A DNA stretch of 64,000 nt. Origin: Rhizobium sp. (lineage in GTDB: Bacteria > Pseudomonadota > Alphaproteobacteria > Rhizobiales > Rhizobiaceae). Position numbers and translations under genes: made by a program. Positions 55,541-60,446 of this stretch are shown here, piece after piece; position 1 is the stretch's first letter; the number at the start of each line of letters is the position of its first letter. The notes beneath the pieces are model-generated. The model was not told the origin of the DNA, searched no databases, and was given only the letters and a program-made list of their open reading frames with translations. The stretch is from the NCBI GenBank assembly GCA_003527225.1, contig DPXQ01000158.1, forward strand, positions 93,212-157,211, in the 5' to 3' direction.

Positions 55541-55565
55541 CTAGGGACGATTGGCCCTAGTTTTT
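55541..55565 (+). terminator. Rho-independent terminator after trxC
   Basis: CTAGGG pairs with CCCTAG across an 8-base loop and is followed by TTTTT. It overlaps the last codons of the convergent BCCP-like gene. Confidence 0.75.
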
Positions 55566-55970
55566 ATCCCGTTGCCCGTCGGCGGGGTAAAGGCCAAAAA
55601 GCGCGGCGCCATATCCGGTAAGTGCACCCTCTTCAGCAAGCTGACTGGCAAGAATGCCATCCTCGGCGGCGAGCACCGGCCGCAAGAGCGAGACGGCTTC
55701 GAGAAAGCCGATGATTTCTCCGCGCCTTACCGGTCTCGGCAGCGATTTCTGCGTTTGGTCGCAAGGATGCTTGCTTCGGAAAATGCCGGCATGTGGCGCG
55801 GCAATGGTCGTCTGGCGGCGGGGGGCGGGGGGCGGCTCGTGCGTGGCGAGATCATGCACGTCATGCCTTGTCGCCAGAATATGCCGGTCGCCATCCTGGT
55901 ATTCCAATTCGGCAAGCCCGTGTTTTTCGAGCAGGGCCATGACAGCGCTGAGCCACGTGGTGTCGGTCAT
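55557..55970 (-). CDS. BCCP-like protein lacking the biotin-acceptor lysine
   Basis: The 137 residues read as a biotinyl/lipoyl carrier: APHAGIFRSKHP matches the APxxGTFYRxPSP start of BCCP, and GEIIGFLEAVSLLRPVLAAE with a GYGAALFGL end matches the hammerhead region around EAMKM. The acceptor lysine is missing: EAVSL has Ser94 where EAMKM has Lys. It could be a structural or regulatory subunit or a decaying duplicate, but the frame is intact. Its start (ATG at 55970) overlaps the accC stop by four bases, so it belongs to the pxpA-accB-accC operon. Confidence 0.75.
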   Translation of the reverse strand: MTDTTWLSAVMALLEKHGLAELEYQDGDRHILATRHDVHDLATHEPPPAPRRQTTIAAPHAGIFRSKHPCDQTQKSLPRPVRRGEIIGFLEAVSLLRPVLAAEDGILASQLAEEGALTGYGAALFGLYPADGQRDKN

Positions 55971-57325
55971 TTCGTCCTCCCGAAACCCTGTGCCTGCAAT
56001 CTCTCAAGGTGGTGGATATCGAAGCCGCCGGCGAAAAATCCGGGTTCGCTCAGCAATCTTTCATGAAGGGGTATTGTGGTCGAGATTCCGTCGATCACGG
56101 TCTCGCGGAGTGCGCGCCGCATCCGGGCGATCGCGGTCGCCCGGCTATCGCCATGGGCGATCACCTTCGCGATGAGGGAATCGTAATTCGGGGGCACGCT
56201 GTAACCGGCATAGAGATGGGTATCGACGCGGATGCCCGGGCCGCCGGGCGCGATCAGCTGCGTGATCCTTCCGGGGGAGGGAGCGAAGGTGAAAGGGTCT
56301 TCGGCGTTGATCCGGCATTCGATCGCATGACCCGAAAACCGCACGTCGTCCTGCGCGAAGGAAAGGCTCTCGCCGCGTGCGACGCGCAACTGCTCCCGGA
56401 CGATATCGATTCCAGTGACCTCTTCCGTCACCGGGTGCTCGACCTGAACACGTGTATTCATCTCGATGAAGTAGAATTCTCCATCCTCGTAGAGGAATTC
56501 GAATGTGCCCGCGCCGCGATAGCCGATGGCAAGGCAGGCATCCGCGCAACGCCTGCCGATCCGCTCGATCGCCTCGCCGGCGATGCCGGGCGGGGGCGAT
56601 TCCTCGATAAGTTTCTGGTGGCGCCGTTGCGTCGAGCAGTCGCGCGCCCCAAGATGCACGGCGTTTCCGTGATTGTCTGCCAGCACCTGGATTTCCACGT
56701 GCCGGGGATGCTCCAGAAATTTCTCGAGGTAGAGTTCCGAATTGCCGAAGGCGCGACCAGCCTCCTCGCGCGTCACTGCGACGGCACCGGCAAGCTCTGC
56801 GGCATTGCGAACGATGCGCATGCCCCGGCCGCCACCACCGCCTGCCGCCTTGACGATCAGCGGAAAGCCCGTTTGCACGGCGATCTGCATGATCTGAGCC
56901 GGGTCAGCCGGTAGTGCATGGTCGGGGCCGGGAACGCAGGGCACGCCGGCGGCGATCATCGCGCGCTTTGCCGCGACCTTGTCACCCATCATGCGGATGG
57001 CTGCGGCGGGCGGTCCGATGAAGGTAATGCCGGCGTCTTCGACCATTTGCGCGAAGTCCGCATTTTCCGAAAGAAATCCGTATCCTGGATGAATGGCGCC
57101 GGCCCCCGTCATTTTCGCGGCGAGCAGAAGTTCACGCATGTCGAGATAGCTCCTGGCCGCCGGTGCAGGGCCGATGCAGAGCGCGGTATCGGCCAGTTTG
57201 ACATGGCGCAGATCCGCGTCCGCCTGCGAATGGACGGCGATGGCCTTCAGTCCGAGGTCGCGGCAGGCCCGCAATATCCTCAGCGCGATTTCGCCGCGAT
57301 TGGCAATGAGAACACTGTCGAACAT
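55967..57325 (-). CDS. accC: Biotin carboxylase subunit (AccC-like)
   Basis: The 452-residue ATP-grasp enzyme has MFDSVLIANRGEIALRILRA, the glycine-rich ATP loop KAAGGGGGRGMRI, and the catalytic block FIEMNTRVQVEHPVTEEVTG with HxxR residues of biotin carboxylases. It charges a biotinylated carrier with bicarbonate. It is a locus-specific copy: accB lies just upstream (four bases between), the pxp genes flank, and no accA/accD carboxyltransferase is nearby. The main fatty-acid ACC is probably elsewhere. A start six codons earlier is possible. Confidence 0.93.
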   Translation of the reverse strand: MFDSVLIANRGEIALRILRACRDLGLKAIAVHSQADADLRHVKLADTALCIGPAPAARSYLDMRELLLAAKMTGAGAIHPGYGFLSENADFAQMVEDAGITFIGPPAAAIRMMGDKVAAKRAMIAAGVPCVPGPDHALPADPAQIMQIAVQTGFPLIVKAAGGGGGRGMRIVRNAAELAGAVAVTREEAGRAFGNSELYLEKFLEHPRHVEIQVLADNHGNAVHLGARDCSTQRRHQKLIEESPPPGIAGEAIERIGRRCADACLAIGYRGAGTFEFLYEDGEFYFIEMNTRVQVEHPVTEEVTGIDIVREQLRVARGESLSFAQDDVRFSGHAIECRINAEDPFTFAPSPGRITQLIAPGGPGIRVDTHLYAGYSVPPNYDSLIAKVIAHGDSRATAIARMRRALRETVIDGISTTIPLHERLLSEPGFFAGGFDIHHLERLQAQGFGRTK

Positions 57326-57329
57326 GGCG

Positions 57330-58589: not shown

Positions 58590-58773
58590 GATAGCCTCCA
58601 TGTGACCGTCATCCTACGATCAATTCGCCGGTGGGAACAATCGCGATACGTCCATCCGGATCGACGTTTTTGGCATGTTTTTCCGATGGTGCCCGAGAAA
58701 AGTGATAGGCAAGAATGGCGAACTGATATATCAGAGAGCGAAGACTGTAAATCATCAGGCTAATGCGGGAACG

Positions 58774-59442
58774 ATGCGCGAGAACGGCGGGAAACCGAGA
58801 TTGAGCATGCAGGGCGCCGGGGCAATCCTTGTCGATGCCGCCGGCTCCTTGTTCGACGACGCCTGTCAAGGGCGCATCTGGGCGCTGGCAACCGACCTCC
58901 GCAGCATTGCCGGCGTGTCCGAGACTGTTCCCGGCATGAACAATCTGATGGTTGTCTTCGATCCGCTTGTCCTTGACCCAACCGTGTTGGAGAGCGAGAT
59001 CCTTTCCCGCTGGGGCCATATCGTACCCAACCCCGGCCCCGGACGGACCATCGAAGTTCCGGTTGTCTATGGCGGAGAGAGCGGCGAGGACCTTGCTGCC
59101 CTCGCGCATTCCAAGGGAATGGACGTCGAAGAACTGGTGGCGCTTCATTCGGCCCCGCTCTATTCGGTCGCGGCCGTCGGCGCCATGCCGGGCTTCGTTT
59201 ATCTCTCCGGACTCGACCCCCGTCTGGCCACCCCGCGCCGAGCTGTACCCCGGATGAAAGTTCCTGTCGGCTCCGTCATCATCGGCGGCGCGCAGGCGGG
59301 CATCATGCCGCTGACCGCTCCTTCCGGCTGGCACATCATAGGCACGACCGGCATGGCGCTCTTCGATCCCCATCGCGTGCCGCCTGCCGCCTTCCGTCCG
59401 GGAGACAGGATTCGCTTCGTGCCGGAGGATATCCGGCAATGA
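58774..59442 (+). CDS. pxpB: 5-oxoprolinase subunit B (KipI/AHS1 family)
   Basis: A 222-residue KipI-type protein with GAMPGFVYLSGLDPRLATPR (catalytic-site loop), VPVGSVIIGGAQAGIMPLTA and GWHIIGTTG. AHS1 is named from the allophanate hydrolase subunit 1 and is homologous to part of the carboxyltransferase of urea carboxylase. The start at ATG 58774 gives the usual length; an ATG at 58807 is possible. Its stop overlaps pxpC in ATGA. The 184 bp before it separate it from the divergent pxpA and should contain both promoters. Confidence 0.92.
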   Translation: MRENGGKPRLSMQGAGAILVDAAGSLFDDACQGRIWALATDLRSIAGVSETVPGMNNLMVVFDPLVLDPTVLESEILSRWGHIVPNPGPGRTIEVPVVYGGESGEDLAALAHSKGMDVEELVALHSAPLYSVAAVGAMPGFVYLSGLDPRLATPRRAVPRMKVPVGSVIIGGAQAGIMPLTAPSGWHIIGTTGMALFDPHRVPPAAFRPGDRIRFVPEDIRQ

Positions 59443-60446
59443 TCGAGATATTGACCACGGGCGCGGGCAACACCGTGCAGGATCTCGGCCGCTTCGGCTA
59501 TCTCGATGCGGGTGTCGGCCGCTCCGGTGCCATGGATGGACTGGCCCTCGAACTTGCCAATCTTCTGCTCGGAAACACGGCCAATGCCGCCGGTCTCGAA
59601 ATCACGCTGTTTCCCTTCCGGCTGAAAGTCCATGTCCATTGCGCCATTGCCGTGACAGGTGCCGATTGCCCGGTGAAGCTCGACGGCCGCGCCTTTCCGT
59701 CCTGGTGGGTTGTGCCAGCCGCGCCCGGCGATGTGCTGGAGGTCGGCCTGCCGCGTTCGGGCGCGCGGGCAATCCTCGCCTTCTCGGGGGGGCTCGATGT
59801 GCCGCCCGTACTCGGGTCACGCTCCACGGATCTGAAGAGTGGCTGGGGCGGCCTTGAGGGCAGGGGGCTCAATCGCGGCGACCGGTTGGCGCTCGGCACT
59901 CGTTCCTTTACAGGCTTTGCGGATCTGCCGGCCGGCTTCGGCATGGACCCGACCTCGATTCGCGCACCGCTTTCCGGGGTCGATGCGGACGAAATCGGTG
60001 TGCGGGTTCTGCCGAGTGCTGAGTATCTGGCCTTTACCGATGAGGCTCGCGCGCATCTTGTCGGCGCGGCATGGGAGGTCAGCGCCGAAGCCAATCGCCA
60101 GGGATATCGCCTCATCGGGCCGGAACTGGCGATGAAGGAAAAGCGCGAGCTCTTTTCCCACGGCATCATGCCGGGCACGGTGCAGGTGCCGCCTTCCGGT
60201 CAGCCGATTATCCAGCTCGCCGAGGCCAATACCTGCGGCGGCTATCCGAAGATCGCCAATGTCATCGAGGCCGATCTCTGGCGCCTGGCCCAGGCTGGTG
60301 TCGGCGCAAGGCTTCGCTTCATCGAGACAACACGGGAAGAGGCGATCACCGCTCTTCGTGCGCAACGCGCGGCAGTCGCCGAGATTTCCGCCACGGCGGC
60401 TCTGGTGCGCAAGGACAAGAAACTGAAGGACCGGGGAAACGGGTAG
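59439..60446 (+). CDS. pxpC: 5-oxoprolinase subunit C (KipA/AHS2 family)
   Basis: The 335-residue partner of PxpB begins with TGAGNTVQDLGRFGYLDAGV and includes VGRSGAMDGLALELANLLLG and QLAEANTCGGYPKIANVIEA, signature segments of KipA/AHS2. With PxpB it should bind 5-oxoproline and ATP or, by analogy with urea carboxylase, receive carboxyl groups. It overlaps pxpB and is followed one base after its stop by the dehydrogenase gene, so the plus arm is one operon. Confidence 0.92.
   Translation: MIEILTTGAGNTVQDLGRFGYLDAGVGRSGAMDGLALELANLLLGNTANAAGLEITLFPFRLKVHVHCAIAVTGADCPVKLDGRAFPSWWVVPAAPGDVLEVGLPRSGARAILAFSGGLDVPPVLGSRSTDLKSGWGGLEGRGLNRGDRLALGTRSFTGFADLPAGFGMDPTSIRAPLSGVDADEIGVRVLPSAEYLAFTDEARAHLVGAAWEVSAEANRQGYRLIGPELAMKEKRELFSHGIMPGTVQVPPSGQPIIQLAEANTCGGYPKIANVIEADLWRLAQAGVGARLRFIETTREEAITALRAQRAAVAEISATAALVRKDKKLKDRGNG

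Follow-up and report, generated by a model that had tools for sequence, protein, structure and literature searches.

The proteins of the locus analysed here have counterparts in four described systems. PxpABC of Corynebacterium glutamicum (YbgJKL in Escherichia coli) is reported to be an ATP-dependent 5-oxoprolinase in which PxpA represents a lactam-opening family, and neither accB nor a carboxylase is named in the accessible part of that paper (PMC13274462). Urea carboxylase (Kluyveromyces lactis, PDB 3va7/5i8i; bacterial Oleomonas type) combines biotin carboxylase (BC), carboxyltransferase (CT) and biotin carboxyl carrier protein (BCCP) as BC-CT-BCCP; it carboxylates nitrogen, and Lys1605 of the K. 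lactis enzyme is described as the probable general base (PMC5770610). The plant heteromeric acetyl-CoA carboxylase has, beside its true BCCP and BC, a BCCP paralogue without the biotin motif, BADC, which is described as unique to plants (PMC11926652). The PDB entry 9yx5, titled 'long chain acyl-CoA carboxylase complex from M. smegmatis with MSMEG_0435-MSMEG_0436 bound', holds AccA3 together with PxpB and PxpC homologues, i.e., a mycobacterial PxpBC pair bound to a biotin carboxylase complex; our literature searches found no paper on this entry. Lombard and Moreira (2011) left open whether stand-alone homologues of the urea carboxylase CT use other biotin carboxylases or derive from another reaction (PMC3199775). 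Here we describe a locus within a 64,000-nucleotide stretch of a Rhizobium sp. genome (contig DPXQ01000158.1, hereafter the window), in which the pxpA, pxpB and pxpC genes are accompanied by accB, accC and a gene for a BCCP paralogue lacking the biotinyl lysine, named pBCCP.

The locus comprises two divergent operons, with the order PxpA, AccB, AccC and pBCCP on the minus strand and PxpB, PxpC, a flavin adenine dinucleotide (FAD) oxidoreductase, a split short-chain dehydrogenase/reductase (SDR) gene and a racemase-family gene on the plus strand. We refer to this design with pBCCP as type I, and distinguish it from type II, which has a short BCCP, and type III, which has a fused PxpBC and a fused AccC-BCCP. 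In window coordinates, the six core genes are:

55557..55970, minus strand: pBCCP, a 137-aa BCCP paralogue without the biotinyl lysine (profile alignment, motif and fold)
55967..57343, minus strand: AccC, biotin carboxylase (TIGR00514, 691.1 bits, cut-off 626.5)
57330..57812, minus strand: AccB, biotin carboxyl carrier protein, EAMKM present (TIGR00531, 114.6 bits, cut-off 115.2)
57813..58601, minus strand: PxpA, LamB/YcsF family, with HSD replacing HGD (PF03746, E=7.9e-95)
58675..59442, plus strand: PxpB, CT_C_D (TIGR00370, 183 bits, cut-off 145.55; PF02682, 6.1e-63)
59439..60446, plus strand: PxpC, CT_A_B, with the type I signature Q and N in QLAEANTCGGYP (TIGR00724, 293.6 bits, cut-off 230.2; PF02626, 1.2e-86)

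AccC is called from 57343, and its true start may be the Met near 57325; the accC stop and the pBCCP start overlap by 4 bases. The family models bear out the five genes named in the initial annotation, which was also right that the operons diverge and that accA and accD are missing from the locus (none among the ten locus proteins scanned). The set that it called complete contains these five genes but omits the sixth, pBCCP, in the same interval. No allophanate hydrolase was found among the scanned locus genes. Close proteins in the protein database search come from Rhizobium and Allorhizobium metagenome-assembled genomes. In the 24 loci found with the PxpC query, pxpA, pxpB and pBCCP are each present in all 24, accB in 23 (L017 is cut by a contig end), and accC in 22 (absent from L010 and L011); because these genes recur together, the gene set is more than a chance arrangement. 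The locus is real and conserved and, because of pBCCP, more unusual than it had appeared.

In pBCCP, the motif IEAMKMLNPV of the true AccB reads LEAVSLLRPV, with EAVSL replacing EAMKM, and its relatives have, as a rule, (K/Q)(A/V)G(P/A/S) there. None of 25 aligned rows has the motif lysine, which is missing also from all 24 related loci and from Rahnella; pBCCP is predicted to be unable to carry biotin. A Pfam scan of the protein gave no match, and TIGR00531 reached only 16.6 bits. In hhalign, profiles built from 18 pBCCPs and from 14 linked AccBs aligned over 133 columns, including the N-terminal part, with a probability of 99.6%. The AlphaFold model has a predicted local distance difference test score (pLDDT) of 83.2, exceeding 90 across most of the C-terminal barrel, and a predicted template modelling score (pTM) of 0.57; its top PDB fold matches include the E. 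coli, archaeal, and Arabidopsis BCCPs. The ratio of nonsynonymous to synonymous substitution rates (dN/dS) in six pairs is 0.19-0.33 for pBCCP and 0.09-0.29 for AccB, pBCCP being the more variable of the two in two pairs. Thus, pBCCP is a full-length BCCP paralogue under purifying selection. It shares with BADC the homology to BCCP in both the N- and C-terminal parts and the loss of the biotin motif, and it likewise stands beside a true BCCP and a BC (PMC11926652). In contrast to the plant system, the window system is bacterial and has PxpBC in place of CT-alpha/beta; binding of the BADC kind is putative for pBCCP. A BADC-like adaptor is our best guess for the role of pBCCP.

A protein database query with pBCCP returned 6 proteins including itself, a number that is no measure of spread since the search needs shared 5-letter words. 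A pBCCP profile matched 275 of 299 genomes, mostly in ordinary AccB; the 30 best matches with loci comprised 5 pBCCPs, all in pxp loci, and 25 AccBs with the lysine motif that adjoin AccC. The pBCCP group has a support of 80 in a quick tree. Outside this group falls a second lysine-less BCCP (VDVLSKLMPV; L134, 4779-5267, minus strand), which occurs with AccBC and a PxpABC of the unlinked type. At the Bosea locus L027, the exception to the persistence of pBCCP without AccBC, no pBCCP was found; the candidate there was rejected, as this open reading frame (ORF) starts AccB-like and has a stretch matching AccC (37% identity). This plasmid ORF (7924-8364, plus strand) in a pxp locus is apparently a deletion remnant of accBC.

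The PF02626 model matched 102 of 299 Pseudomonadota genomes. From the matches, 98 loci were fetched; left out were 38 places in frames of at least 1,179 aa (counted by eye), 2 of genome G002 already included, and 3 fragments. Of these loci, 74 are unlinked, i.e., without AccC or BCCP within 7.5 kb on either side (less near contig ends), 12 are type III, and 5 are type II, plus one whose AccC lies where the contig ends; another 5 have both AccBC and a lysine-less BCCP, and one (L118) has pBCCP only. Co-occurrence of accBC with pxpABC, for which the initial annotation had proposed a genome check, thus recurs, and linked AccC and pBCCP recur across genera, most type I loci carrying both accB and accC. 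The type II clusters have the order pxpA-short BCCP (EVMK)-accC-pxpB-pxpC (L085-L093, L105, L106, L114, and L117), and 9 of 13 related genomes checked carry type II besides type I. In the type III loci (L121, L128, L130, L137, L138, L142, L143, L144, L148, L154, L156, and L164), a fused PxpB-PxpC with the signature FRFW/SFP adjoins a fused AccC-BCCP and PxpA; the M. smegmatis PxpBC pair, with FRFW/SLP, is near this type.

All trees were quick trees with midpoint rooting and Shimodaira-Hasegawa-like approximate likelihood ratio test (SH-aLRT) support. Among the 142 rows of the PxpC tree, type III forms one group (support 100), type II together with L107 and L141 joins the urea carboxylase CT (96), and type I together with L118 forms a group of 36 rows (86, or 93 with L027); L094, which repeats L010, is counted within the 35 type I rows here and in the residue counts below. 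The PxpC of L134 pairs with an unlinked row (99). PxpC alone cannot tell separate gains of the AccBC link from an old link with losses. Separate gains are favored because types I, II, and III each have their own AccC subfamily. In the AccC tree (100 rows), a branch (support 99) sets off all 32 type I rows, and all 15 type II rows (96) and all 12 type III rows (100) likewise have groups of their own, apart from 38 housekeeping rows (13 from related and 25 from further genomes). The L134 AccC falls outside the type I group, with housekeeping as well as type I rows around it.

The window AccC is identical to E. coli AccC at 276 of 446 positions, and all 16 checked residues of the active site and ATP site, at what we take to be their E. 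coli positions, are kept, so that the active site is judged to be intact. We checked accA, accD and the housekeeping accBC in the 13 relatives of the window genome. Each has a single accA and a single accD above the cut-off, away from the pxp locus, and a further, housekeeping accB elsewhere that adjoins an accC. Service to a distant accA/accD pair, named in the initial annotation as a case against its reading, is the less probable for the window AccBC, since these relatives have their own accB-accC besides accA and accD. Because of the separate housekeeping accABCD, the AccC subfamily of its own, and the 9yx5 complex, the window AccBC probably serves PxpBC rather than AccAD.

Active-site residues tell the designs apart. 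At the position of Lys1605, both urea carboxylase rows and all 15 type II rows have Lys; PxpB has Arg there in all 35 type I rows, that of the window among them, in all 12 type III rows, and in 75 of 76 unlinked rows; the exception is L107, one of the 74 unlinked loci, which nevertheless has the type II signature. In type I, PxpB has Ala or Ser instead of Phe (35 of 35; Ala in the window at the position of E. coli F137, in piece numbering) and PxpC has Gln plus mostly Asn (33 of 35). PxpA has HSD for HGD in all but one of the 35 type I rows and in all 14 type II rows, but in only one of 67 unlinked rows (L107) and none of 12 type III rows. The combined type I signature, with A/S in PxpB, Q and N in PxpC, and HSD in PxpA, follows AccBC linkage and is present also in L118. 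By these residues, type II looks truly urea-carboxylase-like, and type I looks like a distinct variant. The window shares with urea carboxylase the same three functions, and the CT halves of that enzyme are homologous to PxpC and PxpB; it differs in its separate genes, the additional PxpA and pBCCP, and Arg for Lys1605. Since type I has Arg and not Lys, the analogy on which the proposal of N-carboxylation was built is lowered for the window itself: the intact AccC, EAMKM, and the AccBC linkage agree with it, but this residue does not. The window was not filed as a urea carboxylase proper, types I and III both failing at this position. With the PxpABC 5-oxoprolinases it has all of PxpA, PxpB, and PxpC in common, E. 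coli YbgJK being the nearest fold, but it adds AccB, AccC and pBCCP, carries the type I residues, and has a PxpC below the strict cut-off of the 5-oxoprolinase PxpC model NF045499 (297.6 bits against 500).

We favor the reading, to which we give about an even chance, that the products of the six genes form one dedicated enzyme that opens lactams in a biotin-dependent way, with pBCCP as its structural subunit, because of the separate housekeeping genes and the PxpBC pair bound in 9yx5. Also in its favor are the recurrence of linked AccC and pBCCP across genera, the intact AccC and its own type I group, the grouping of type II PxpC with the urea carboxylase CT and the Lys of type II PxpB, the HSD of PxpA in types I and II, the purifying selection and BCCP fold of pBCCP, and the 4-base overlap of its gene with accC. 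In the proposed mechanism, AccC would use ATP and bicarbonate to load CO2 onto the AccB biotin, and PxpBC would receive the carboxyl group and activate the ring nitrogen of a lactam. This lactam may be 5-oxoproline, but a hydroxylated or substituted relative is more likely in the present case. PxpA would then open the activated ring, after which CO2 would be lost again. For its part, pBCCP may pair with AccB and/or AccC and dock the biotin half onto PxpBC in the manner of BADC. Because pBCCP persists where accC or accBC is missing, such an adaptor may be able to use the housekeeping BC-BCCP.

Several observations weigh against this proposal. The type I Arg at the Lys1605 position is as in the biotin-free PxpABC, and type I retains Gln at a position where M. 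smegmatis, urea carboxylase, and types II and III have Phe, Tyr, or Leu. The type I branch of the PxpC tree is nested within a group of 50 rows (support 99), to which E. coli PxpC and further unlinked loci belong. At L134, the signature, including GR and Arg, is that of the unlinked type even though AccBC and a lysine-less BCCP are present. Two Gellertiella-type loci (L010 and L011) keep accB and pBCCP and lack accC; the normal-size AccCs of the L010 genome (G007) are housekeeping and type II only, with longer carboxylases besides. L118 and the Rahnella plasmid have pBCCP and pxpABC without accB or accC nearby. As to the physical link, 9yx5 resembles the window in that PxpB and PxpC homologues are bound to a BC-BCCP subunit, but the partner is the fused AccA3 of an acyl-CoA carboxylase that has its own CT; the PxpA search matched no 9yx5 chain, and MSMEG_0435-MSMEG_0436 may act as a regulator in that complex.

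The best-surviving alternative holds that PxpABC is an ordinary ATP-dependent 5-oxoprolinase, and that AccBC is a spare or conditional copy for fatty acid synthesis by AccA/AccD, merely co-regulated with it. It draws on the C. glutamicum PxpABC, reported as a 5-oxoprolinase by itself (PMC13274462), on the unlinked majority of the surveyed loci, and on the Arg and Gln that type I shares with the unlinked type. The initial annotation had counted PxpABC activity without biotin as evidence against its proposal, and such activity is reported for C. glutamicum, whose PxpABC is of another sequence type than type I. A spare copy is at odds with the single accA and accD away from the locus in all 13 relatives and with a signature in three Pxp proteins that follows linkage, and it leaves the conserved lysine-less BCCP unexplained. 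We dropped AccBC as a mere acetyl-CoA carboxylase spare on the AccC tree, where type I stands apart from the housekeeping rows, and consider this alternative as a whole unlikely.

A quite improbable alternative gives pBCCP a regulatory or sensing role within PxpABC: as a subunit that binds the housekeeping BC-BCCP, it would tie lactam use to the status of acetyl-CoA carboxylase, and the linked AccBC would be an add-on in some lineages. The accC-less loci L010 and L011, L118 and the Rahnella plasmid, as well as genome G235 with one AccC beside two urea-carboxylase-size frames, would be expected under it. However, most type I loci have both accB and accC, and the exceptions are equally explained by a borrowed housekeeping BC-BCCP.

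The neighbors of type I loci bear on a further alternative. Of the 35 type I loci, 21 have a gene resembling RraA/4-carboxy-4-hydroxy-2-oxoadipate aldolase, against 0 of the 102 other loci; the corresponding counts are 21 and 2 for an aminotransferase and 18 and 0 for relatives of the racemase-family gene of the window, these counts being biased by queries from type I loci and by 10-kb flanks in 24 of the 35 against 7.5 kb in the survey. The RraA-like gene suggests that downstream intermediates may bear extra carboxyl groups, as they might if the type I PxpBC were a carboxyltransferase for carbon, not nitrogen, with PxpA acting on the carboxylated product; the homologous urea carboxylase CT acts on nitrogen (PMC5770610) and PxpA belongs to a lactam-opening family (PMC13274462), and we regard this as very unlikely. 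Decay of pBCCP as a functionless accB duplicate, to which the lost biotin motif and the two more variable pairs might point, was dropped on dN/dS and is extremely improbable given its presence in all 24 loci, its retained BCCP fold, and its conserved replacement motif.

The remaining genes around the window locus are:

60448..61689, plus strand: DadA-like FAD oxidoreductase, in the PxpBC operon
61710-62422, plus strand: SDR gene in two partial ORFs of different frame (61710-62234 and 61835-62422)
62437..63489, plus strand: proline racemase / hydroxyproline epimerase-dehydratase family protein (PF05544, 412.7 bits)
63541-63969, minus strand: RbsD/FucU family protein, past the racemase-family gene

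The split of the SDR gene is a frameshift or sequencing error. The top NCBIfam match of the racemase-family gene is trans-3-hydroxy-L-proline dehydratase (334.5, below the cut-off of 550). The type I neighbors fit ring opening to a hydroxylated glutamate, followed by transamination and retro-aldol cleavage, and 4-hydroxy-5-oxoproline is a candidate substrate, albeit a doubtful one. On the other side of the locus, a ScpC-type succinyl-CoA:acetate CoA-transferase, a thioredoxin with an N-terminal zinc ribbon, and a small helix-turn-helix ORF (53187-55528) also adjoin the pxp locus in several Rhizobiaceae relatives.

In the literature searched, whose coverage is partial with subscription papers outside it, we found no report of a biotin-dependent PxpABC or of a bacterial lysine-less BCCP. 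We tentatively propose, with somewhat less than even confidence, that type I represents a biotin-dependent lactam carboxylase-hydrolase of a new kind, with a BCCP paralogue free of biotin as the obligatory adaptor that would couple a dedicated or housekeeping BC-BCCP to PxpBC; it would be a separately arisen bacterial counterpart of BADC and would count among three or more recruitments of a biotin carboxylase by PxpABC. On the practical side, pBCCP is named inconsistently across public records, as biotin carboxyl carrier subunit, biotin attachment protein, biotin/lipoyl-containing, or hypothetical protein. At L026, the lysine-less BCCP (12627-13058, plus strand) is labelled acetyl-CoA carboxylase biotin carboxyl carrier subunit, and the true BCCP alongside is labelled biotin/lipoyl-containing protein. 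The three AccBC-linked PxpABC designs and the unlinked ones, told apart by residue signatures, make the question of Lombard and Moreira testable (PMC3199775), and a conserved bacterial lysine-less BCCP would widen the idea of non-catalytic carrier subunits beyond plants (BADC, PMC11926652).

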